A DNA stretch of 64,000 bases from [Flavobacterium] thermophilum. GTDB lineage: Bacteria > Bacillota > Bacilli > Bacillales > Anoxybacillaceae. How positions within the stretch are numbered: the first letter of the stretch is position 1; each line of letters starts with the position of its first letter. Positions 14,541 through 39,996 of the stretch are shown one piece after another. Location: contig UGGS01000001.1 of NCBI GenBank assembly GCA_900450595.1, positions 992,001 through 1,056,000 of the forward strand, in the 5' to 3' direction. A model generated the notes under the pieces. That model ran no database searches. It worked only from the letters and a program-made list of their open reading frames with translations, and was not told where the DNA came from. The position numbers and the translations under genes were made by a program.

Positions 14541-16250
14541 TCAAAACAGAAAATATCGTTGCGCCATGGCCACAACTTCAGCCGGTTCGCACGTGATGAG
14601 CCGCCCATCGACCTTCACTTCATACGTTTGCGGATCGACATCGATTTGAGGCATGGCGTTGTTGAACACCATATCGTGTTTCGTTAACGAACGAATGTTT
14701 CCAACCGGTTTGACGATTTTGTGCAATCGCAGTTTGTCAGGGACGCCGCGTTCGAACGCCGCTTTGGACAAAAACGTAATGGACGTTTTCGCGACGGCGG
14801 CGCCATAGTTGGCGAACATCGGGCGGTACAGAGCGGGCTGCGGCGTCGGAATGCTGGCGTTCGGGTCGCCCATCACGCTGTAGGCGATCATCCCGCCTTT
14901 GATGACGAGCTCAGGCTTGATCCCGAAAAAAGCGGGATGCCAAACGACCAAATCTGCGAATTTTCCGACTTCGACTGACCCGACATACTCCGCGATGCCA
15001 TGAGTGATAGCCGGGTTGATCGTATATTTGGCTACGTACCGTTTGACGCGGACATTATCGCCTCGCCCCGTTTCCTCCGGCAAGCGGCCAAACTGTTTTT
15101 TCATTTTGTCGGCCGTTTGCCACGTACGTAAAATGACTTCACCGACCCGTCCCATCGCTTGCGAGTCGGAACTGATCATGCTGAAGGCGCCGATGTCGTG
15201 CAAAATGTCTTCTGCCGCGATCGTTTCTTTGCGGATGCGCGAATCAGCAAAGGCAATGTCTTCTGGAACGGACGGATCTAAATGATGGCACACCATTAAC
15301 ATATCTAAATGCTCATCGAGCGTGTTTTTCGTATACGGCCGCGTCGGGTTCGTGGAAGAAGGCAAAATGTTCGGGAAGCTGGCGACTTTCATAATATCGG
15401 GCGCATGCCCCCCTCCGGCTCCTTCCGTATGGTATGTATGAATGACGCGTCCGTTAATGGCCTTCAGTGTATGCTCGACAAACCCGCCTTCATTCAATGT
15501 ATCGGTATGAATGGCGACTTGCACATCGTACTCATCCGCCACTCGCAAGCACGCATCAATCGCTGCCGCCGTCGTTCCCCAGTCTTCATGAAGCTTGAGT
15601 CCCACCGCGCCCGCGCGCACTTGCTCCGCGATCGGCTCTTTCGCCGACGCGTTGCCTTTTCCTAAAAACCCAAGATTCATTGGGAACGCTTCGGCGGCTT
15701 CAAGCATCCGGTAAATATTCCACTCTCCCGGCGTGCACGTCGTGGCATTCGTTCCGGTCGCCGGTCCGGTCCCGCCGCCAATCATCGTCGTAATGCCAGA
15801 TGACAGGGCGGTTTCGATTTGCTGCGGGCAAATGAAATGGATATGGGCATCCACTCCTCCAGCGGTCACGATTTTCCCTTCGGCCGCGATCACTTCCGTT
15901 GAGGCGCCGATGACAATATTGACGCCGTCCATTAACAGCGGATTCCCCGCCTTGCCGATGGCGGCGATGTTTCCATCTTTGATCCCGATATCGGCTTTGT
16001 AAATGCCGGTGTAATCAACGATGACGGCGTTCGTCAACACTAAATCGACCGCTTCGTCGCGGGTTGCGAGCGGATGCTGCCCCATCCCGTCGCGAATCAC
16101 CTTCCCGCCGCCGAATTTCACTTCATCGCCGTAAACGGTATAGTCATGCTCAATTTCAATCCATAAGTCTGTGTCCGCCAACCGGATGCAGTCCCCAGTC
16201 GTCGGTCCAAACATATCCGCGTATTGCCGTCTTGACATAGAAAAACTCAT
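14541..16250 (-). CDS. ureC: urease alpha subunit
   Basis: The catalytic subunit, 569 residues, hydrolysing urea to ammonia and carbamate at a dinuclear nickel site. Key features: [12 protein letters not shown] (HxH nickel ligands), [11 protein letters not shown] (carbamylated Lys), [17 protein letters not shown], the mobile flap with catalytic Cys-His in MVCHHLD, and [12 protein letters not shown] (Asp ligand). The start at 16250 is four bases past the ureB stop, behind GGGAGAG. Complete, with no substitution seen in the active site. Confidence 0.97.
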
Positions 16251-29742: not shown

Positions 29743-30645
29743 TTACTGCCTCACCTTTTCAATCATCTCGACCGGCAGCCCAGTCAGTTCGTGAATCGTG
29801 TCGACATCGTACCCTTTCGCCAGCATTCTCTTCACCACGTCGAGCTTCCCTTCCTCGATCCCTTGTTGGCGTCCTTGCTTCATCCCCTGTTCGATTCCTT
29901 GTTGGATTCCCTTTTCCATCCCCCGCTGTTCGTATGAGACGATGAGTTCCATCACACGCTTTGCTTCCTTCGTCTCCATTTGGCTCACCTCGTGTCGCAG
30001 TTGGATTTCCTCCTCTTCGGATAACCGCAAATACGTCTCGAAAAAACCGAACAACAGCCGCTGTTTCGCTTCATCCAGCTCAAGGCGGACGAGCATGCGC
30101 AAAAATTCCTTTTTCACGTCGACTTTCTCATCTTCATTATACCCCATTTTGCTTAGCAAGGCAGCGGCGACAGGGTTGGCATGGCGGATGTACGCGCGCC
30201 ACGGCAGTTTGCATAGCTCCACCGTCAAAAAGCGGAAGTCAAGAACGGTCAAAAACGGAAACTGCATGACCAATGAGGAAGGTTCGTCGTATTGTTCGTC
30301 ATAGCTGAAGATGGCGATCGGGAGAATGCGGCGGCGGTATTTTTGAAACAAGCGGCTGAAGTAGAGGAACATTCGCTCGGGGAAGGTCCGCTGGGTGTAG
30401 CTTTGATGCTCGACATGGACAATGACGAGCCCGTCTTCCCCTTTCACCTTTGTTTCGACCAACAAGTCGACGCGGTGCTTCTCTCCGGCCGTCACATCGG
30501 TGAACAGTTCCTCGGAGAGGAAAGAGAGATGGTGAACGTCAATGTACTCGTACACGTCGGGAAAGAAAAGAAGCAAAAACTCCTCAAAAAATGTCGACAG
30601 CAACTCTTTGAACAACCGGTCATGATCGATGCGCTGTTTGGCCAC
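29743..30645 (-). CDS. Rpn-family PD-(D/E)XK nuclease, copy 1
   Basis: 300 residues from GTG 30645 behind GGGAGGG. N-terminal DHDRLFKELLSTFFEEFLLL and FPDVYEYID are the signature of the Rpn (recombination-promoting nuclease/putative transposase) family; the catalytic PD-(D/E)XK elements are Asp60 in RVDLLVETK and Glu79-x-Gln81 in VHVEHQSY. The C-terminal part has a Gln/Gly/Lys repeat (GIQQGIEQGMKQGRQQGIEE) and ends in LTGLPVEMIEKVR. It lies directly downstream, same strand, of a CRISPR array, and a close paralogue at 38566 has the same arrangement. Real role unknown; known Rpn proteins cut DNA and raise recombination. Confidence 0.85.
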   Translation of the reverse strand: MAKQRIDHDRLFKELLSTFFEEFLLLFFPDVYEYIDVHHLSFLSEELFTDVTAGEKHRVDLLVETKVKGEDGLVIVHVEHQSYTQRTFPERMFLYFSRLFQKYRRRILPIAIFSYDEQYDEPSSLVMQFPFLTVLDFRFLTVELCKLPWRAYIRHANPVAAALLSKMGYNEDEKVDVKKEFLRMLVRLELDEAKQRLLFGFFETYLRLSEEEEIQLRHEVSQMETKEAKRVMELIVSYEQRGMEKGIQQGIEQGMKQGRQQGIEEGKLDVVKRMLAKGYDVDTIHELTGLPVEMIEKVRQ

Positions 30646-30773
30646 GTTTTCCCTCCCTGCAATTGTCGGATTCACCGTACTGTATTCGCTCTTCGCGGCC
30701 AAATTCCTTCTTGTTTCCCCCGCGTTTTTTTGGCATGTGCCATTTCGCATTTGTCCTTTTCCTATGTCGAGCG

Positions 30774-30806
30774 GTAAAACAAGCTGAACTCAGCGGTGGT
30801 TCAGCT
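30774..30806 (-). terminator. terminator between CRISPR array 1 and the Rpn gene
   Basis: AGCTGAAC pairs with GTTCAGCT (30782-30789 with 30799-30806); leftward reading then gives TGTTTTA. It would stop most transcription of the array before the Rpn gene. Confidence 0.65.
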
Positions 30807-30819
30807 GAGGCGGGGAATA

Positions 30820-31513
30820 GTTTCAGTTCCTCGTAGGTACGATAAAAGCAATCAATAAGAAGGTGAAGAAACTTGGCTAGGACGGGTTTCAATCCCTCAT
30901 AGGTACGATAAAAACCATATATCCCAATATTCAATTCATTTGCAATATCTTTGTTTCAATCCCTCATAGGTACGATAAAAACATCCTTTCATTTTTGTTT
31001 TATTGCCTCCTGCATCTAGTTTCAATCCCTCATAGGTACGATAAAAACGATGGAAGGGGCTCCGATCGTAACGATCGGGATGACGTTTCAATCCCTCATA
31101 GGTACGATAAAAACATGAAATGGATGATCGGCAACGCGACCACTATTGGGTTTCAATCCCTCATAGGTACGATAAAAACACAGCACAAATTCAAACAGGA
31201 GCCATTACAAACGCTTGTTTCAATCCCTCATAGGTACGATAAAAACGGCCGTACCCATTTGTGCTTGTCTTTTTCATCCCAAGTTTCAATCCCTCATAGG
31301 TACGATAAAAACGTCGGCTAACAATGCAGACGGTACAGCCGCCGAAGAAAAGTTTCAATCCCTCATAGGTACGATAAAAACCTCTGGGGTTATTTGCTAT
31401 TATTGCTGGGGTGATTGTTTCAATCCCTCATAGGTACGATAAAAACGCAAAAACAGTTTGAAAAAGAAATGGAACAAATCAAAGTTTCAATCCCTCATAG
31501 GTACGATAAAAAC
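30820..31513 (-). CRISPR. CRISPR array 1 (11 repeats, 10 spacers)
   Basis: 30-bp repeats beginning GTTTCAATCCCTCATAGG and ending ACGATAAAAAC (plus-strand reading), starting at 30886, 30953, 31019, 31085, 31150, 31217, 31283, 31352, 31417 and 31484, plus a degenerate copy at 30820-30849. Spacers are 35-39 bp. On the transcribed (minus) strand each repeat ends in ATTGAAAC, the 8-nt tag typical of type I-A/I-B/III repeats. The degenerate terminal repeat and the promoter-bearing leader on the right fix the orientation. No cas gene occurs in the window. Confidence 0.97.
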
Positions 31514-31680
31514 CCAAACCATGTGCGTAAAATCAAGCTTTTCCCCTTTTGGCTGTTTTCAGAATAACACGTTTCAAAAATTCTGTCAATACTGTTCAGC
31601 CGTGTTGGCTGTAGGATTTTGACGCGAAAAGACATTGTCGTCGATCCCCCGGGATTTTTGCACGATTGGAGGTCGACGAC
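31514..31680 (-). promoter_or_regulatory. leader of CRISPR array 1
   Basis: About 167 bp nearly identical to the leader of array 2. It holds a near-consensus promoter on the minus strand: TTGACA (31584-31589), 17-bp spacer, TATTCT (31561-31566), giving a start roughly 40 nt before the first repeat. Its outer end is a hairpin, GTCGTCGA (31637-31644) with TCGACGAC (31673-31680), a probable terminator of the upstream AEC gene that insulates the array. Confidence 0.85.
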
Positions 31681-31695
31681 AACTTGCCCCCGTTT

Positions 31696-32658
31696 TCATC
31701 CGCCAATCGGAAACAGCAGACGGGCCGCATATACTGTGCCTGTCACGGTAATGGCGCTCAACAAGGTCGACACCAGCACTGCCTGGGCGGCGTAATCGGG
31801 GTGGCAGTCATACTCGAGCGCATACAGCGCCGTATTGCGTGAACATGGATACGAACTGGCAATGAGCAATGCCTGAGCCGTCACGCCATCCATTCCTAAT
31901 AGAAAGATCAAAGACCCAGCCAACAGCGGCGACAATATCAAGCGCCCGAACACACTCACATACACAAGCGGCGGCAAGGCAGTAAACCGAGCGTAGGCGA
32001 TTTGCGCTCCCAACGTAAAGAGGGCGATGGCTAAAAACGCATCGGCGACCCGCTGAAGCGGCGTCCATAAAAATGATGGGATCGGGACGTGGAGCCATCG
32101 GCAGACCACGCCAAGCAACAGCGCGTGAAGGACGGGATTTTTCCATATCTCAGCAGCCCATTTCCCACTTTTCCCGTTTCCTGACACGAACTGATACACT
32201 CCATATGTATTGGTCAAGAAGTTTTGAAAAATGGTCACGATGATTTGAATCGTCGCCCCGAGCGGATGTTGGTGAAACACCAGCTGGCTGACAGGAATGC
32301 CGAAGTTGCCAGAATTGTTCAGCACAACCGTATTTTGAAACACCGCTGCCATACTTCGCTCCAGTTTGAATAGTTTCGCCATGATCCTACTCAAAACCAT
32401 CAGCCCGCCGTTTTGCAACAGAAGAAACCCTAAGATAGCCGCTAACACCTTTCCATTCAACTCACTGTCGTACACGTTGATGAATGCGACTGCCGGCAGC
32501 AGGACATACATGTTCAATTTGGATAATGTATTGAGGTCAAGACGAAAGAAACGGTGAAGCCCTGCTCCCAAGCCGACAATCAACAGCATAGGAACCATCA
32601 CTTGCAATACAATTCCGCTAAAAACAGCCAAGACGTTTCCCCCGCTTTCTTTGTGCAT
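31696..32658 (-). CDS. AEC-family transporter
   Basis: About 320 residues with ten membrane segments in two halves, as in auxin-efflux-carrier/malate permease proteins. Motifs: LLPAVAFINVYDSEL, VVLNNSGNFGIPVSQLVF and LIASSYPCSRNTALYALEY (the Asn/Pro-rich break of the second half). Last gene of the tct cluster, 48 bp after the response regulator, so probably moves organic acids. Two starts are possible: ATG 32658 (used here) or TTG 32631 with a better GGGGG spacing. Confidence 0.83.
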   Translation of the reverse strand: MHKESGGNVLAVFSGIVLQVMVPMLLIVGLGAGLHRFFRLDLNTLSKLNMYVLLPAVAFINVYDSELNGKVLAAILGFLLLQNGGLMVLSRIMAKLFKLERSMAAVFQNTVVLNNSGNFGIPVSQLVFHQHPLGATIQIIVTIFQNFLTNTYGVYQFVSGNGKSGKWAAEIWKNPVLHALLLGVVCRWLHVPIPSFLWTPLQRVADAFLAIALFTLGAQIAYARFTALPPLVYVSVFGRLILSPLLAGSLIFLLGMDGVTAQALLIASSYPCSRNTALYALEYDCHPDYAAQAVLVSTLLSAITVTGTVYAARLLFPIGG

Positions 32659-32706
32659 ATGTCGGCTCGATGTTCCTTGTATAACGTTGTTCAGACATCC
32701 CGCCTT

Positions 32707-33399
32707 TTACACTTTTTTTCGATAAATCCGCTCCGGACGACCGACCGATCCATAGACAATATCGGCTAGCACTTGTCCCGTGGAGACAAGGTATTCTAAA
32801 TATCGACGGGCGGTCGTCCGGCTTGTGCCAATTTGCCGTCCGACTTCTTCAGCAGTGATGCCTTCTTGGCACTGCCTAACAACCGCTAACACTTTTTCCA
32901 GCGTCAACGGCTGAATGCCTTTAGGCAACATCGGCTGTTCCTTAACGGACCATTCTCTTCCCATCAGTTCATCAACATCTTCTTGGCCAATCCACTCTTT
33001 CTCTTTCACCCACCGCTGCATTTTGTCATAGTACTCTTTATACCGATGCAATGTGTCGACAAATCGATCAAACATAATCGGCTTGATAATATAATCAAAC
33101 ACCCCGCCATGCAGCGCTTGTTTCAAGGCATCCACTTCTCGTGCTGCTGTGATCATAATAATATCGATATTGGAAAAGCGTTCCCGAACCCATTTTAAAA
33201 AAGAGAGGCCGTTCATATCCGGAAAATAGACATCAAGCAACAACACGTCGGGTTGCAGCACCTCTGTCAATTCCCTTGCCTCTTCGGCGTTCGTGGCGAT
33301 GCCGACCACTTCATAACCGTTCACTTTCTCGACAAAGCGCCGATTGATTTCCGCAATGCGGCGGTCGTCTTCAATAATCAGTACACGAATCGGCAACAT
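32707..33399 (-). CDS. CitT/DcuR-type response regulator
   Basis: 230 residues. Receiver domain with acidic pocket IIEDDRR, phosphorylated Asp in LLLDVYFPDMNG (near 58), Thr in MITAA and Lys in IIKP. The C-terminal part (LEKVLAVVRQCQEGITAEEV, GRQIGTSRTTARRYLEYLVS) is the HTH of citrate/malate regulators. It pairs with the kinase ending 13 bp upstream and probably controls tctCBA and the AEC transporter in response to tri- or dicarboxylates. The start MLPIRV follows AGAAGGAGGG. Confidence 0.9.
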   Translation of the reverse strand: MLPIRVLIIEDDRRIAEINRRFVEKVNGYEVVGIATNAEEARELTEVLQPDVLLLDVYFPDMNGLSFLKWVRERFSNIDIIMITAAREVDALKQALHGGVFDYIIKPIMFDRFVDTLHRYKEYYDKMQRWVKEKEWIGQEDVDELMGREWSVKEQPMLPKGIQPLTLEKVLAVVRQCQEGITAEEVGRQIGTSRTTARRYLEYLVSTGQVLADIVYGSVGRPERIYRKKV

Positions 33400-33412
33400 C
33401 GGTTCCCTCCTT

Positions 33413-35027
33413 CTAGCCTTGGCGGTCCTGCCGCCCGACATGGGCTGGCCGCTTTGGGATCATGATGGTAAATACCGTGCCTGCTCCTTGCTCAGATCGA
33501 TACGTCATTTGCCCCCCGAGCATTGTCAACGCCCGGTTCACTAGATCAAGCCCATACCCCCGCCCTCCGGCAGCCTTCGTTGAAAAGCCGCGCTCGTAGA
33601 TCCGTTCCGCTACAACTGGGTCAATGCCTAATCCGTTATCCTCGACCTCAATAATCAAGTCATCGCCGAGGTCGGTCAAAAAAATGGTCACTCGTTTCTC
33701 TTCTTTTCCGTTGTGGAGGACCGACCGCTTCCATGGCGTTATCTACTACATTTCCAATAATGGTTACTAGATGGTCCCGGTCCATCCATGGCGGCACATC
33801 ACGGAAACTGCTTTCCCGATCGATCTCAAACACAATTTTCAGCTCGTTGGCGCGATTGAACTTGCCGATCAGCAGACCGCCGATGATCGGATCCGGAATT
33901 TCTTTCATGACAAACCGGACGATGTTTTGTTGCAAGTCGGTCTCTTTTGCGATCAGTTCAAGCGCTTCCTCATACGATTCCAGTTGAATCAGGCCAGAGA
34001 TCAAATACAGCTTGTTGGAAAATTCGTGCGTTTGCGCGCGTAAGGCATCGGCATAACTGCGAAGCTGCGATAACTCTTTGGTCAAGCGATACAATTCCGA
34101 TTTGTTTCGAAACGTCGATACCGCTCCGATCACACGCCCTTGCTTGTCTTTGATCGGAATGCGGTTGGCAATGACGGTTTCTTCCCCTAACACCATTTCA
34201 TCGTCAAATTCTGCCTGCCCCGTCCGAATGACTTCAGGCAGCCTCGAGTGGGGAATAAGCTGCAAGATCGGCATTCCCAACACATCGCGTTCGTTCTCAT
34301 ACCCAAGCAGCTTCAGCGCCGTTTGGTTGACCATTGTAATCGTTCCCTCTTGATTGATGGCCACCATTCCTTCGCGAATTGCCTCTAAAATCGCCTGCTT
34401 TTCTTGGTAGAGCAAACCGATTTCTTCCGGTTCAAGACCATGAATCGATTTTTTCACCGCCTTGGCGATCGCCATTGCACCCACCGCTCCGAGAAAGAGG
34501 GCAAAAACGGAGAAGAGAAACATCTTCATACGATACGACCATACTGTACGCTGAATATCCTCTAGCAAAAAACCAACCGAAACAATGCCGATCACATGTC
34601 CGTTTTCATCAAAAATCGGCGCTTTTCCCCGGATCGCCGGACCAAGCGAACCGACCGCCTCCGAAATAATGGCCTTGCCTTTGAGCACCTCACCGTTGTC
34701 GCCCCCGACCATCGGTTTGCCGATCCGGTCCGGCAGCGGGTGAGCATAGCGGATTCCCTTACGGTTGCCAATCACTACGTACTCCGCCCCTGTCTTTCGG
34801 CGAATATATTCGGCAAACGGCTGCAAGCGCACGGACGGATTCGGGTCGCGGAACGCCTCGCGCACAAGCGGGGTGGACGCAACGGTTTCCGCCACGTTCA
34901 GCGCCCGCATGCCGATTTGTTGTTTGATAGTCTCCGCGAACATATGTTGGAATAAAAATGTAAGAAACACGATGACAAACAAAAGCAGCGAACAAATGAT
35001 CATCATCAACCGTGTTTGCAGTTTCAT
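33413..35027 (-). pseudogene. CitA/DcuS-type sensor kinase broken by a 4-bp duplication
   Basis: N-terminal TM (MMIICSLLLFVIVFLTFLF), extracytoplasmic Cache/PAS-like sensor (TVASTPLVREAFRDPNPSV to APIFDENGHVIGIVSVGF), second TM, PAS domain (AINQEGTITMVNQTALKLLG), phospho-acceptor His in AQTHEFSNKLYLISGLI and N-box VVDNAMEAV. Then the frame is lost: GACCGACC at 33720-33727 is a tandem duplication of GACC. Removing one copy restores AVLHNGKEEKRVTIFL, leading to the ATP-binding G boxes DNGLGID and GRGYGLDLV. As it stands the protein stops before the G boxes and cannot bind ATP. It could be a switchable contingency site or an assembly error. Confidence 0.85.
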
Positions 35028-35103
35028 CGTGCTGTCCCCCAAACGGAAAAATGAAAAGAAAGACCATCCTCCAACTTAAGGAAGAAAGCCTTTCTTTCTA
35101 TTA

Positions 35104-36630
35104 TTACATATCTTCATTGACAATGACGGTTTTTCCTCGTAACTTCATGAAAAACGGCACGGCAATCCACAACAAGGCGATGACTAACAAGACAAGCGAA
35201 ATCGGCTTTTCAACGAAAACGAGATAGTCCCCGTTGGATGCCGTCAACGCCCGGCGCATGTTGTTTTCGATCATCGGCCCCAACACAAGCCCCAGCACAA
35301 GCGGCGCAAGCGGATAGTCGTGTTCCGCAAGCCAATAGCCGAGCAAGCCAAATGCCAACAACAGAAACACATCAAACGTCGTCACTTGCACCGCATACAC
35401 GCCGAATACAGAGATGGCAATAATGAGCGGCAACAAATACTTCGTCGGCGTTTGGATGATTTTTGCGAAAATTTTTACAAGCGGCATGTTCAGAATTAGC
35501 AACATCACATTTCCAATGAACATGCTCGCAATCAATCCCCAGGCGACAGCCGGATGTTCATCAAACAACAGCGGACCTGGCTGGACGTTGTACATAATGA
35601 GCGCTCCCATCAAAATGGCCGTCGTCCCGGACCCCGGAATCCCGAGCGTCAACAGCGGAATCATCGCGCCTCCAGACGCACCGTTGTTCGCCGACTCGGG
35701 CGCCGCGACGCCGGCGATCGTCCCTTGGCCGAATTTTTCCGGATGTTTGCTGATTTTCTTTTCAAGAATATAAGAGAAAAATGAGGCCAACGTCGCTCCG
35801 GCTCCCGGCAGCACGCCGATGAAAAATCCGAGCAGCGACCCGCGGGCAATCGGGCCGGCACTTTCCTTCAAGTCCGATTTGGTTGGCAAGATGCGCCCGA
35901 TTTTAGCAATTTCCCCTTCGTTCGTTTCCCGATGGAGAATCGCTCTAAACACTTCTCCCAACGCAAACAACCCGACCGCTACGGTTAAAAACTCCAGCCC
36001 CCCATACAAATAGGAAATGTTGTACGTGAAGCGTGCGACGCCAGAGACGTTGTCGAGCCCGATCGTGGAAAGCAACAAGCCGAACACCGTCATGATCCAC
36101 GCTTTCGTCATCGATTTGCCGGCAAGGCCGCTCACCGCCGCCAACCCGAGCAGCATGAGCGAAAAATATTCAGCCGGACCGAACTTCAAGGCGACATTGG
36201 ACAGCGGCTCCGCTAATAATACAAGACCGATGAGCGACACAATCCCCGCCACAAACGAGCCGATCGCCGCAATCGCCAGCGCCGCCCCGGCCCGGCCTTG
36301 CCGCGCCATTTGGTAGCCGTCCAGCGTCGTGACAACAGACGATGATTCCCCGGGCGTGTTTAACAAAATTGACGTCGTCGACCCGCCGTACATCGCCCCG
36401 TAATAGACGCCGGCCAACAAAATGATCGAACTGGCGGCCGCCTGCTCGGGACTCAAACCCGATGTCATCGACGCCGTCACCGGAATGAGCAGCGCCACCC
36501 CGCTCATCGGCCCGATCCCAGGAAGCACGCCGACCGCCGTGCCGATCAACACCCCGATAAACGCAAACAGCAAGTTATGCGGCTGAAGCGCCGTCTGAAA
36601 TCCGTCAAACAAAAACGATAGTGTGCTCAT
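35104..36630 (-). CDS. tctA: tripartite tricarboxylate transporter, large membrane subunit TctA
   Basis: 508 residues with about 11 membrane segments. GTAVGVLPGIGPMSGVALLI near 35, YYGAMYGGSTTSILLNTPGE near 80 and GASGGAMIPLLTLGIPGSGTT near 320 are the TctA repeats. It forms the channel that works with TctB and the binding protein TctC. It lies 13 bp after tctB, with the sensor kinase next. Intact. Confidence 0.94.
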   Translation of the reverse strand: MSTLSFLFDGFQTALQPHNLLFAFIGVLIGTAVGVLPGIGPMSGVALLIPVTASMTSGLSPEQAAASSIILLAGVYYGAMYGGSTTSILLNTPGESSSVVTTLDGYQMARQGRAGAALAIAAIGSFVAGIVSLIGLVLLAEPLSNVALKFGPAEYFSLMLLGLAAVSGLAGKSMTKAWIMTVFGLLLSTIGLDNVSGVARFTYNISYLYGGLEFLTVAVGLFALGEVFRAILHRETNEGEIAKIGRILPTKSDLKESAGPIARGSLLGFFIGVLPGAGATLASFFSYILEKKISKHPEKFGQGTIAGVAAPESANNGASGGAMIPLLTLGIPGSGTTAILMGALIMYNVQPGPLLFDEHPAVAWGLIASMFIGNVMLLILNMPLVKIFAKIIQTPTKYLLPLIIAISVFGVYAVQVTTFDVFLLLAFGLLGYWLAEHDYPLAPLVLGLVLGPMIENNMRRALTASNGDYLVFVEKPISLVLLVIALLWIAVPFFMKLRGKTVIVNEDM

Positions 36631-36643
36631 GATGCCCCTCCTT

Positions 36644-37099
36644 TCATTGGAACCAAATCGGCCAGCTCGGCAATGTTCCTTGCAGCAGCTTCACATAAAG
36701 GCCATATACGCCTAACGAAAAACCAGCCGCAATGGCGATCGATTTCCACAGCGCCCCTTTTTCCATCGTTTGAAAGCCGATGACAAGAAAGAGAAATGTC
36801 GTGATCACATATCCAACCGTTTCAAGCAACGCCGCATAGAAAATGGCGGCGATGAAAATGACAAGAAACTTTTTATATTGCCGCGGCAGTTTCTCCCCTG
36901 TTGCGCCTGAATAATTTCTTGTCTCAAACAGCAGTTTTATGCTTAATAAAACCAACACAAGTCCAAGCAAAAACGGAAACACATTCGGCCCGACAGCGCT
37001 GCCGTAGGCGCTTTTCGATATGCGCAAACTTTCCACCATAAACAAAGCGCCCACAGCCAAAAACGCCACCGCCGCGATCCGGTCAGCCGTTTTGTTCAT
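36644..37099 (-). CDS. tctB: tripartite tricarboxylate transporter, small membrane subunit TctB
   Basis: 151 residues with four membrane segments: AAVAFLAVGALFMVESLRI, VFPFLLGLVLVLLSIKLLFE, FLVIFIAAIFYAALLETVGY and AIAAGFSLGVYGLYVKLL. Low conservation is normal for TctB; identity comes from size, topology, the ending LPSWP and position between tctC and tctA. The start MNKTADR follows GGGAGGG. Confidence 0.9.
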   Translation of the reverse strand: MNKTADRIAAVAFLAVGALFMVESLRISKSAYGSAVGPNVFPFLLGLVLVLLSIKLLFETRNYSGATGEKLPRQYKKFLVIFIAAIFYAALLETVGYVITTFLFLVIGFQTMEKGALWKSIAIAAGFSLGVYGLYVKLLQGTLPSWPIWFQ

Positions 37100-37151
37100 C
37101 GCTTTCCCTCCCGCTTTTGGAAAAAGGGGAAGAATGCTCTTCCCCCTCGAG

Positions 37152-38192
37152 TTATTTATGCATCCCAAGCGACTTCAGCAGGTCGCCGACTTGCTGCTCT
37201 TGCTCTTGCAAAAATTTCGTAAACTCTTCCGAATTGCGATACTCTGCTTCCCAACCTTGTTTTTGCAGCTCTTCTTTCCATTTTTCATGCTCAGACAGTT
37301 TTTTCAATGTCTCTTCCCAAAACGCTTTTGCTTCCGAAGACATTTCCTTCGGCCCGAACACGCCGCGCCAAATCGTAAACTCGGCATCAACGCCAAGCTC
37401 TTTCATCGTCGGCACGTCTTTCAGCACTCCGCCGAGGCGTTCAGGAGCGGAAACCGCCAGCACCCGCACTTTGCCGGCTTTCAAATATTCGCCAACCGAA
37501 GACGCATCCGTCGCAATCACATCCGCATTGCCGCCAAGCAGCGCCGCCATCGCTTCTCCGCCGCCATCGTACGAAACATACTTGACTGATTTTGGATCGA
37601 TGCCCGACTTATAGATCGGCAAAATCGCCACTAAGTGGTCCATCGACCCTGGCGCCGACCCTCCGGCAATGGTGACGGATTTCGGATTTTGTTTAATGGC
37701 GTTCAGCAAGTCGGTCAACGTTTGAAACTTTGAATCGGCTTTAACCACAATCGCGCCAAAGTCTTTTGTCAACTGGGCGAGCGGGGTTGTGTCTTTGTAG
37801 CCGAACGGGCTGTTCCCTTCTTTTTTCAGGTTGTTGATGATAATCGGCGGCGAGTTGACAAACAGTTTGTAATCGTTTTTGACATCCTGGGTGGCGTACT
37901 CAGCCATAAAGACCGCCCCGCCGCCGCCCGGTTTGTTTTCGACCGTCATGGTCTGTTTGACAAGCCCTGTCTCATCCAACACTTTCGTGACCGCGCGGGC
38001 CGTTAAATCCCAACCGCCGCCCGCCCCAGACGGAGCAACAATCGTAATCGGCTTCGTCGGATAGTTTGAGGCCGATGAGCCAGAGTTCGAACCGGACGAT
38101 TTCGACCCCGCCGATTCATTGCCCCCACAGGCCGCCAAAGCCAGTGTCATCATCCCTGCAGCGAGCAATCCCCACCATTTCGTTTTCTTCAT
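37152..38192 (-). CDS. tctC: tricarboxylate-binding lipoprotein TctC
   Basis: About 346 residues. Signal peptide with lipobox LALAACGG near 20. The Bug/TctC fold shows in YPTKPITIVAPSGAGGGWDL, VENKPGGGGAVFMAEYA, GGSAPGSMDHLVAILPIYK and GNADVIATDASSVGEYL. The Ser/Gly-rich stretch after the Cys is the usual linker. First gene of tctCBA. The start MKKTKWW follows AAGGGAG, and a cre box lies just upstream. Confidence 0.92.
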   Translation of the reverse strand: MKKTKWWGLLAAGMMTLALAACGGNESAGSKSSGSNSGSSASNYPTKPITIVAPSGAGGGWDLTARAVTKVLDETGLVKQTMTVENKPGGGGAVFMAEYATQDVKNDYKLFVNSPPIIINNLKKEGNSPFGYKDTTPLAQLTKDFGAIVVKADSKFQTLTDLLNAIKQNPKSVTIAGGSAPGSMDHLVAILPIYKSGIDPKSVKYVSYDGGGEAMAALLGGNADVIATDASSVGEYLKAGKVRVLAVSAPERLGGVLKDVPTMKELGVDAEFTIWRGVFGPKEMSSEAKAFWEETLKKLSEHEKWKEELQKQGWEAEYRNSEEFTKFLQEQEQQVGDLLKSLGMHK

Positions 38193-38215
38193 TTCTCCCT
38201 TGCCCCCTTGTTTTT

Positions 38216-38229
38216 TGATAACGTTTTCA
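38216..38229 (-). promoter_or_regulatory. cre box upstream of tctC
   Basis: TGAAAACGTTATCA on the minus strand matches the CcpA cre consensus (TGNAANCGNWNNCA) at every defined position. It lies 24-37 bp before the tctC start, suiting glucose repression of the tct operon. Confidence 0.75.
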
Positions 38230-38367
38230 ATCACAACCTTACCATGCCGCGGGATGAGCGTGAAGTTTTTGAAAATAAAATGAATTTTGTGCATTTTGTT
38301 CATGGACATATAGCCGACATGATCTCATATGGCCAAGACGCCTAGCGGAACGCCGGAGCCCCATAAC

Positions 38368-38400
38368 AAAAAAAGGCCGCCTGCCTTTCAAGGCCGACGG
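38368..38400 (-). terminator. terminator after the second Rpn gene
   Basis: Leftward reading: GCCG and CGGC enclose an inner GCCTT/AAGGC hairpin, followed by CTTTTTTT. It lies between the Rpn gene stop and tctC. Confidence 0.6.
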
Positions 38401-38565
38401 TGCATAAAACGTTGATACGGTGCATACTTTCTGACTTTCGTTCCTCATCTTTCATGTGGCAGGACGATCATTCGTTTTTTTACAATCGATCACTTACGAA
38501 TCAATGATTTCATCTGCCTCTTTTGTCGCCGCCAACCGTCCTCGTTAGATAGCCGCCTCTTGTGT

Positions 38566-39423
38566 TTAATTTCCCTGCTCTTCAAGCAATTCCCAAACAT
38601 CTTCCTCTGGAAGATCCACCAACCTAGCAATGTCTTCCGCCTTCATTCCTTTGCGCGCCATGTTGCGGATCAGCTGTTTCATTCCTTGTTTTATCCCCTG
38701 TTTCCTTCCCTTTTGCTCATAGGAAATGATCAGCTCCAACACTTGCTCTTTTTCTTTCGTTTCCATCGCCCTCACCTCTCTTTGTAGTTGTTGCTCTTCC
38801 TCCTCCGACAGCTTCACATATGTTTCAAAAAAGCCCAACAGCAGCCGCTGCCTCGCTTCATCCAGCTCCAATCGCACCAACATGCGCAAACACTCTTTTT
38901 TCAACTCGACTTTCTCACTTTCAGTATACCCCATTTTGCCAAGGAGGGCAGCTGCGATCGGATTGTCATGCCGGATGTAGTCTCTCCAATGTTTCTTGCG
39001 CAGCTCTACGGGGAAAAAGCGAAACTGCAGCACGTCGCCAAAGGGAAACTCGATTGAGAACACGGATGGTTCCTCGCGAAGGGCATCATGGCTGAAGACA
39101 GCGATCGGAACGATGCGCGTGCGGTATTTTTCAAACAGACGGCTGAAATAGATAAACATGCGCTCTGGAAACGATGGTTGCACGTAGCTTTGATTCTCCA
39201 CATGAACGATGATCAGCCCATCTTCTCCTTTCAGCTTCGTCTCGACCAATAGATCGACGCGGTATTTTTCACCTGCGGTGACATCGGTAAACAGTTCTTC
39301 GGACAGGAAGGACAAATGGCGGAAATCAATGTGTTCGTGCATGTCGGGGAAAAAGAGGAGAAGAAACTCTTCGAAGAACGTTTGAATCAGTTCTTTGAAC
39401 AACCGGTCGTGGTCAATAACCAT
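38566..39423 (-). CDS. Rpn-family PD-(D/E)XK nuclease, copy 2
   Basis: 285 residues, clearly paralogous to the protein at 29743 (shared DHDRLFKEL, FFEEFLLLFFPD, LSFLSEELFTDVTAGEK). Catalytic candidates: Asp in YRVDLLVETK and Glu in IVHVENQSY (ExQ). The C-terminus has the short repeat KGRKQGIKQGMKQ and ends with a helical LVDLPEEDVWELLEEQ. It lies 100 bp downstream, same strand, of CRISPR array 2, and here I see no terminator in between, so read-through from the array is possible. Both copies intact. Confidence 0.85.
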   Translation of the reverse strand: MVIDHDRLFKELIQTFFEEFLLLFFPDMHEHIDFRHLSFLSEELFTDVTAGEKYRVDLLVETKLKGEDGLIIVHVENQSYVQPSFPERMFIYFSRLFEKYRTRIVPIAVFSHDALREEPSVFSIEFPFGDVLQFRFFPVELRKKHWRDYIRHDNPIAAALLGKMGYTESEKVELKKECLRMLVRLELDEARQRLLLGFFETYVKLSEEEEQQLQREVRAMETKEKEQVLELIISYEQKGRKQGIKQGMKQLIRNMARKGMKAEDIARLVDLPEEDVWELLEEQGN

Positions 39424-39523
39424 TCCATCACCCCTCTTTGAACGTGTTCGATTCTATCCATTCGCAAACAGGGGGTGAAAATCCTGCATGGGGGACAGAA
39501 AAAGTTGTGCCGTACTACACAGT

Positions 39524-39816
39524 GTTTCAATCACTGATGGGGACGATAAAAGCCCGAAACAGTCCGATTGGAACGGTACGAGTGAGTAGTTTCAATCCCT
39601 CATAGGTACGATAAAAACTATGGGTCAAGTGGAATGCTTGAATTGTGATGAATGGTTTCAATCCCTCATAGGTACGATAAAAACATTAACCGGAAAAGGA
39701 GGGGGAAAGCAGGTGAAATGTTTCAATCCCTCATAGGTACGATAAAAACATTCGATGGCCTGCTTGAGCACGCTCAATAAATTGTTGTTTCAATCCCTCA
39801 TAGGTACGATAAAAAC
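39524..39816 (-). CRISPR. CRISPR array 2 (5 repeats, 4 spacers)
   Basis: The same 30-bp repeat as array 1, at 39589, 39655, 39720 and 39787, plus a degenerate terminal repeat at 39524-39553. Spacers are 35-37 bp and differ from those of array 1. Orientation as array 1 (transcribed leftwards). No cas genes nearby. Confidence 0.97.
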
Positions 39817-39983
39817 CCCAAAGAATGCGCATAAAATCAAGCTTTTCCCCTTTTGGCTGTTTTCAGAATATCACGTTTCAAAAATTCTGTCAATATCGTT
39901 CAGCAGTGTTGGCTGTAGGATTTTGACGCAAAAAACATTGTCGTCGATCCCCCGGGATTTTTGCACGATTGGAGGTCGACGAC
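39817..39983 (-). promoter_or_regulatory. leader of CRISPR array 2
   Basis: Nearly identical to leader 1. Promoter TTGACA (39888-39893), 17-bp spacer, ATTCTGA region with TATTCT (39865-39870). The outer hairpin GTCGTCGA (39940-39947) with TCGACGAC (39976-39983) is followed, leftwards, by TGTTTTTTG, a good terminator for the upstream mtlD. Confidence 0.85.
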
Positions 39984-39996
39984 ATTTGCAAGACGG

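Follow-up and report, generated by a model that had tools for sequence, protein, structure and literature searches.

The locus analysed here raises the question of why two CRISPR arrays with nearly the same leader, each followed by a gene for an Rpn-family nuclease, stand on both sides of the tct gene cluster in [Flavobacterium] thermophilum. The window, i.e., the whole 64,000-nucleotide stretch of DNA that was analysed, was compared with Geobacillus genomes and with other genera of the same family.

Two modules around the tct cluster

The tct cluster is flanked by two modules in which leader, CRISPR array and Rpn gene follow one another in equal orientation, all on the minus strand (Table 1). 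This order and orientation had been described by an earlier sequence-only reading, which also held that the leaders and repeats are nearly identical and the spacers different. The leaders are 93–94% identical, the perfect repeats of both arrays match Rfam CRISPR-DR2 and no spacer is common to arrays 1 and 2. Module 2 lies between the mtlD stop codon and a terminator-like hairpin. Sites A and B, as we term the positions of modules 1 and 2, adjoin AEC, tct and mtlD genes.

Table 1. Features of the two modules in the window
Feature	Coordinates	Strand	Remarks
Leader of module 1 (site A)	31514-31681	-	promoter-like TTGACA-17-TATTCT at 31589-31561 reads into array
Leader-distal inverted repeat, module 1 (site A)	31633-31681	-	nhmmer matches
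CRISPR array 1	30820-31513	-	11 repeats (10 perfect, last degenerate), 10 spacers
Candidate terminator hairpin separating array 1 from Rpn1	30782-30806	-	25 nt
Rpn1, TIGR01784 nuclease	29743-30645	-	GTG start at 30645, picked by homology and ribosome-binding site
Predicted RpnS-like internal frame of Rpn1	29743-29979	-	78 aa; GAGGTGA ahead of ATG
Leader of module 2 (site B)	39817-39984	-	promoter-like TTGACA-17-TATTCT at 39893-39865
Leader-distal inverted repeat, module 2 (site B)	39936-39984	-	nhmmer
CRISPR array 2	39524-39816	-	5 repeats (4 perfect, last degenerate), 4 spacers
Rpn2, TIGR01784 nuclease	38566-39423	-	
Predicted RpnS-like internal frame of Rpn2	38566-38766	-	66 aa
Terminator-like hairpin beyond module 2	38371-38389	-	counterpart directly behind mtlD in empty-site relatives

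The hairpin between array 1 and Rpn1, previously read as a terminator, is present with the same sequence in 4/4 other site-A loci compared. Its RNA fold is no stronger than those of shuffles (z -1.1), and a scan for terminators did not pick it up. The same scan, in line with the sequence-only reading, gave no terminator-like site between array 2 and Rpn2. The inverted repeat at the distal end of leader 1 has a fold of -24 kcal/mol (z -5.25).

Both arrays have a leader, regular repeats, unique spacers and phage matches: the spacer at 30916-30952 in array 1 matches Geobacillus virus E3 with 91.9% identity over 37 nt, and one spacer in array 2 matches the same virus with 93.8% identity over 32 nt. 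One type I-C cas locus, with a different repeat, was found in this genome. Cognate cas genes were sought as RAMP genes, which had no match in this genome, and as the Cas6 that neighbours the arrays in relatives, which had no relative here when a relative's Cas6 protein (TIGR01877) was the query; the Cas6 model PF10040 matched none of the 14 genomes.

These results bear on whether the array RNA guides an effector that represses or employs the Rpn nuclease, as in CreTA-like control. Degenerate last repeats lie ~70–175 bp ahead of Rpn at sites A and B and at a third site, C, of this genome, and a promoter-like site in the leader points towards Rpn, both of which are consistent with such control. 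However, none of the 14 window spacers matches its own Rpn region above the best of 60 shuffles, and the last spacers are common to only some species at site B (that of array 2 also occurs in G007 and G013) and to none at site A. A CreTA reading, which calls for a guide spacer matching the toxin region, is thus unsupported among the 14 window spacers, and we regard control of this kind as extremely improbable. Because no spacer matches Rpn and neither RAMP genes nor a counterpart of the relatives' Cas6 were found in this genome, crRNA control of Rpn in the window appears unlikely, and the crRNA-linked defence suggested earlier finds no support.

As for the nucleases themselves, Rpn1 and Rpn2 are 67% identical and score 75.5 and 66.6 bits against TIGR01784 (NCBIfam; cut-off 52.1). 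Pfam PF04754 is reached by Rpn1 only, and Rpn2 is without any Pfam match. The rpn genes of Escherichia coli, RpnL/RpnS, are described as toxin-antitoxin phage defence in the cited sections of PMC10327210, which also note that rpn genes group with systems of the dCas12a or type I-E Cascade kind. An internal Met with a Shine-Dalgarno core was found at the RpnS position in 61 of the 63 recognised genes (66 searched), including all 23 array-linked ones, compared with 16/563 other internal Mets of those genes and 137/5600 in other long frames. These counts were taken at the RpnS position; a first-suitable-Met rule chose another Met in 7/62 genes. By this pattern, the Geobacillus Rpn genes bear the predicted signature of an RpnL/RpnS toxin-antitoxin system.

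Rpn genes beside leaders in Geobacillus

In Geobacillus, joining of Rpn genes to these arrays far exceeds chance. Of the 68 leader loci in 14 genomes, 38 are accompanied on the same strand by an Rpn gene or a remnant of one, 16 at the trailer end and 22 just before the leader, and none has an antisense one. The 38 linked loci comprise 23 full or nearly full Rpn genes and 15 remnants or broken copies; 12 of the 22 leader-side copies are remnants. The strict count leaves 30/68 leaders without Rpn. It omits Rpn at site C in G000 and G007, where the array now present is set apart by a gap from older terminal repeats; these two copies are treated as linked in the tree labels and the local re-placement. 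Genome-wide re-placement in nine genomes (20000 rounds, with adjoining Rpn pieces merged) gave a mean of 0.035 and a maximum of 2 linked units, compared with 26/43 observed. The window arrangement is no local accident. The sequence-only reading had set as its own check that Rpn genes be over-represented next to arrays of this repeat family, and within the genus this held by both counts and re-placements.

The linkage extends over many places in the chromosome. Linked loci occurred in at least one genome in 11 of 18 upstream contexts, and in a twelfth (U4) via a broken remnant beside the leader; contexts were grouped by short flanks, since long flanks lumped 85 of 145 loci into one group. In other genera of the family, 5/77 leaders are Rpn-linked and 0/77 have the same-strand trailer arrangement among the matches listed. 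Both totals (68 and 77) count leaders in fetched stretches, with some BLAST-only pieces (e.g., G004:C1:307051) left out.

One might suppose that two families simply meet by coincidence in defence islands, given that rpn genes tend to group with defence genes according to the cited sections of PMC10327210. However, re-placement within the same segments (3000 rounds) gave a mean of 1.30 linked leaders and a maximum of 7, compared with 39/68 observed, and we reject such coincidence as the sole cause; moreover, the genes next to sites A and B are those named above, and Rpn neighbours in the genus are never antisense. We consider this explanation highly improbable.

Separate insertions and a shared Rpn-leader block

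Three sites carry trailer-side Rpn genes, namely A, B and C, and each of them recurs in several species. In a genome-by-genome tally, site B carries neither array nor Rpn in G002, G003, G005, G009 and G011, an Rpn-free leader and array in G001 and G012, and all three in G000, G004, G007, G008, G010 and G013, with the Rpn copy of G008 broken. In G006, Rpn2 and the terminator are kept while mtlD and the leader are unmatched. Arrays can thus occupy site B without Rpn.

The leaders of sites A and B are 93% identical, and duplication of a leader-array-Rpn module across the tct operon had been proposed. Rpn1 and Rpn2, however, fall in deeply split clades, and a single clade was rejected by an AU test run after the tree was seen (p 4e-6). 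Because the Rpn clades are deeply split despite the close leaders, and both sites are old and each common to several species, en-bloc duplication of the module is rejected.

A heritable Rpn-CRISPR unit, which the sequence-only reading had also proposed, does exist, but in the order Rpn-leader-array and not in the leader-array-Rpn order of the window. One block of Rpn1, linker and leader, ~1.1–1.2 kb long and 83–91% identical, is common to several different chromosomal contexts (U1, U5, U12 and U13), and a shorter stretch of it is shared with contexts U4, U11 and U15. In the Rpn1 subclade 15/17 rows are array-linked, compared with 0/19 for the other rows of that clade, and changes between the linked and unlinked states on the tree number 11, compared with a mean of 21.8 and a minimum of 14 in 300 shuffles. 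In some of the dispersal Rpn seems to have moved alone, because trailer-side site A and the leader-side loci share only ~50–75 bp upstream to ~11 bp downstream of Rpn1. With regard to a possible insertion sequence or transposon, the loci compared have a common left edge, ~70 bp before Rpn1, and a varied right edge, and no very close relative offered an exactly matching empty site. A plasmid search returned 9 records, whose best places cover the leader and array only and none of which spans 80% of the query. That the block is a mobile memory cassette, in which the nuclease would keep and spread arrays after cas loss so that memory lasts until a new effector arrives, is in our judgement distinctly unlikely.

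The Rpn nuclease could also act on the leader inverted repeat or the repeats and so promote array dispersal, for which a strong distal inverted repeat common to the leaders found and the spread of an Rpn-leader block would speak. The 174-nt leader query, however, was matched in 40/41 family genomes among the matches listed, many over the first ~46–55 nt only, which are this inverted repeat, whereas Rpn linkage outside the genus is as rare as given above. Because the repeat is found family-wide in leaders and is missing at this genome's Rpn loci away from leaders, which have no leader match, we reject it as an Rpn-owned end. With autonomous transposition by rpn genes also without evidence in the cited sections of PMC10327210, nuclease-driven dispersal is improbable.

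We propose, as a joint and probable reading, that in the window related arrays were inserted long ago on two separate occasions, with Rpn genes from different subfamilies, and that two dispersed families, leader-arrays of one repeat type and nucleases of RpnL/RpnS type, have been joined on the same strand at many sites and spread by recombination. Homologous recombination, together with horizontal transfer, would have carried the copies to new places; each family would offer the other a stretch of homology to anchor on, so that both partners could spread together once a junction exists. Each Rpn gene would then be retained for its own toxin-antitoxin phage defence, for which no crRNA would be needed. 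On its own, a neutral model leaves the absence of antisense neighbours in the genus unexplained.

Purifying selection acts on the Rpn copies at all three trailer-side sites, with dN/dS of 0.10–0.19 at site A (5 intact copies), 0.07–0.14 at site B (6 copies, the broken G008 copy excluded) and 0.00–0.13 at site C. This selection, the RpnL/RpnS signature and the persistence of arrays in a genome where RAMP genes and the relatives' Cas6 were not found would also suit addiction, in which the toxin-antitoxin pair stabilises dispensable orphan arrays since losing the region means losing the antitoxin. However, linkage of chromosomal leaders is not significantly higher in genomes without a Cas6 match (13/18) than in other genomes (26/46; p 0.27), and the leaders without an Rpn neighbour and the frequent leader-side remnants counted above argue against it. 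Addiction is thus unlikely.

Relation to known systems

In the cited sections of PMC10327210, the E. coli RpnL/RpnS system resembles the Geobacillus genes in its TIGR01784-type nuclease, its internal translation start, which yields a small protein from the C-terminal part (here predicted), and its short amino-acid repeats of variable kind; grouping with defence genes is also reported there. Unlike RpnL/RpnS, the Geobacillus Rpn genes, whose products are putative toxins, abut CRISPR leaders or array ends, and one subclade lies in a shared leader block. In CreTA, a CRISPR-regulated toxin-antitoxin system (PMC9458426, PMC8501985), a toxin-antitoxin gene is likewise positioned with CRISPR repeats, some of them degenerate. 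Unlike CreTA, the toxin region here is without a spacer match, the toxin is a predicted protein nuclease and array-matching effector genes were not found in this genome. The findings connect a recently recognised family of intragenic toxin-antitoxin nucleases with CRISPR arrays, through their placement and through common blocks, and not through RNA as in CreTA.

In thermophiles, CRISPR arrays with a common repeat type occur in multiple, scattered copies, several of which share a leader and some of which are far from cas genes. Unlike those, the Geobacillus arrays are often accompanied by Rpn and include a composite Rpn-leader block. No description of Rpn linked to Geobacillus arrays was found in the open-licence papers searched. 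Two anti-virus systems seem to be paired here, with some Rpn copies having spread around chromosomes together with arrays. The sites provide a natural set in every state, empty, array alone and array with Rpn, from which one can ask why arrays scatter and persist without matching cas genes.

Rpn genes beside CRISPR leaders in Geobacillus

The leader and Rpn were each sought in all 14 Geobacillus genomes analysed, with trailer-side linkage taken as a same-strand Rpn within 300 bp of the trailer end and leader-side linkage as an Rpn end within 100 bp before the leader. In the fetched stretches of these genomes, a same-strand Rpn gene or remnant was found on the trailer side of 16 and on the leader side of 22 of the 68 leader inverted repeats, while antisense Rpn within the 300/100 bp limits was found at 0 of the 68 leaders. 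By table reading, the 38 linked Rpn comprise 23 that are full or nearly full and 15 remnants or broken copies; 12 of the 22 leader-side copies are remnants. In the nine closed or nearly closed genomes 26 of 43 units are linked, whereas 20000 random placements averaged 0.035 linked units and never exceeded 2. When each unit was instead moved at random within its own segment, 1.30 of 68 were linked on average and at most 7, versus 39 observed under slightly wider linkage limits. The association of Rpn with arrays of this repeat family, which the sequence-only reading noted in two modules, is enriched far beyond chance within the genus. The 68 leaders represent 18 upstream contexts, and for 11 of these linkage was flagged in one genome or more; U4 is a twelfth, via a broken Rpn remnant. 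Outside the genus, the matches listed for 27 genomes from eight genera comprise 77 leaders; 5 have a linked Rpn, in each case on the leader side, and two trailer-side Rpn are antisense. Rpn and dispersed CRISPR arrays are already known; no description of the Rpn-array composite or its enrichment was found in the literature searched.

The leader-distal inverted repeat is widespread in the family, with matches in at least 40 of the 41 genomes. A same-strand frame of at least 100 aa ends within 80 nt before it at 45 of the 68 Geobacillus leaders and at 29 of the 77 others (among the matches listed), and such an end precedes 2625 of 20000 random positions. The inverted repeat may act as a stand-in terminator for the preceding gene.

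Locations of the inverted repeats and of other features noted
Feature	Location	Remark
Leader-distal inverted repeat	window 31633-31681	~46 bp; strong fold, -24 kcal/mol
Leader-distal inverted repeat	window 39936-39984	~46 bp; strong fold, -24 kcal/mol
5' ureB small RNA family match	window 15809-16099	115.9 bits
C-terminal Rpn piece (L044)	G000 C2:999030-999422	~130 codons
Site-A leader (L110)	G011 C3:1470649	
Variant-repeat arrays (L047)	G000 C4:17290 and 27110	43.5-kb contig

Structure and history of the two window modules

Both modules are on the minus strand in the order leader, CRISPR array, Rpn, and their positions bear out that they are direct repeats flanking what we take to be tct, kinase, regulator and AEC genes, named from reading frames alone rather than by family search. 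The perfect repeats of both arrays match Rfam CRISPR-DR2, the Rpn1 and Rpn2 proteins both exceed the TIGR01784 cut-off, and each leader has a promoter-like site directed into the array and onward to Rpn. The hairpin described between array 1 and Rpn1 is present, as it is in 4 of 4 other printed site-A loci (site A being that of module 1), and the terminator scan reported none between array 2 and Rpn2, but the fold of the hairpin is no stronger than those of shuffles.

The proposal that the two modules are copies of one module was not sustained, because Rpn1 and Rpn2 are in two separate clades (a single clade was rejected with p 4e-6, in a test run after the tree was seen) and sites A and B are recurrent in several species. 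The two proteins are 67% identical and the leaders 93% identical in the window genome. At site B, that of module 2, nothing is inserted in five relatives (G002, G003, G005, G009 and G011), where the mtlD stop is followed by a terminator and tctC; G012 and G001 have a leader and array without Rpn, in G012 with the terminator directly 3' of the array; and the window genome (G000), G004, G007, G008, G010 and G013 have leader, array and Rpn, then the same terminator. These three states place the insertion between the stop codon and its terminator. In G006, Rpn2 and the terminator are retained, and neither mtlD nor a leader was matched beside them. The site-B leaders of G001 and G012 form a distant group, so they may have reached this position independently. 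At site A of G011 the leader is nearly complete, and in place of CRISPR repeats it has a different short tandem repeat after it.

Probable dispersal of Rpn and leaders

An unbroken block of Rpn1, linker and leader (~1.1-1.2 kb, 83-91% identity) is common to contexts U1, U5, U12 and U13, with its left edge ~50-90 bp before the Rpn1 start (in U13, the contig end), and shorter versions are found in U4, U11 and U15. The sharing of this block across contexts supports the suggested heritable Rpn-array unit, but its order is Rpn, leader, array, unlike that in the window. Contig 72 of G002 has an array on either side of one Rpn1 (a leader piece and 2 repeats, then Rpn1, then a leader and 51 repeats), and the 5' flank of this Rpn1 is in common with site A as far as -184. 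Within the Rpn1 subclade, where both trailer-side and leader-side arrangements occur, 15 of 17 rows are linked, compared to 0 of the 19 remaining rows of that clade. As site A and leader-side loci elsewhere have only the Rpn1 gene and short flanks in common, Rpn seems also to spread alone.

The best-supported explanation is that leader-arrays and Rpn genes are two repeated families that would be dispersed together by recombination, with a carrier of this movement that we infer, and that Rpn would be retained through its own function. In one report, rpn genes are regarded as not autonomous transposases (PMC10327210). Addiction, by which Rpn would stabilise the arrays, is possible, but linked chromosomal leaders are 13 of 18 in genomes without a Cas6 match versus 26 of 46 in the others, which is not significant (p 0.27).

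Rpn function and array content

From their sequences, the Rpn genes here appear to be built like RpnL/RpnS toxin-antitoxin genes, which have an internal start for RpnS that the Geobacillus genes match with a predicted signal. Of 66 genes searched, the RpnS position was recognised in 63, and 61 of these, including 23 of 23 array-linked Rpn, have an internal Met there together with a Shine-Dalgarno core; the same combination occurs at 16 of 563 internal Met codons elsewhere in these genes and at 137 of 5600 in further long frames. The same report describes RpnL/RpnS genes as defending against phages (PMC10327210). The dN/dS of intact Rpn is 0.10-0.19 at site A, 0.07-0.14 at site B and 0.00-0.13 at site C, a third recurrent site with trailer-side Rpn. 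A C-terminal Rpn piece, open in frame before the leader in the window genome, G006, G010 and G013, has dN/dS of 0.15-0.45 and resembles a separate RpnS gene.

No spacer at site A is common to any of the five species compared, and sharing at site B is confined to the last spacer, with one common to G000, G007 and G013 and another to G008 and G010. This is the pattern of arrays that began alike and then acquired spacers separately. The crRNA-linked defence that had been envisaged found no support: spacers of both window arrays match their own Rpn region no better than shuffles, and the window genome (estimated 100% complete) has no match to RAMP genes or to the Cas6 found beside such arrays in five relatives (identified by TIGR01877, with Cmr4 on the same G013 contig), so a crRNA link between arrays and Rpn is unlikely there. 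Its one Cas1 is inside a type I-C locus with a different repeat. Each window array has one spacer with a match in Geobacillus virus E3, at 91.9% over 37 nt in array 1 and 93.8% over 32 nt in array 2. On one contig of the window genome, and likewise on contig C2 of G010, which fits plasmid CP014336.1 in length and match position, an array whose repeat and leader are variants occurs twice, with no Rpn.
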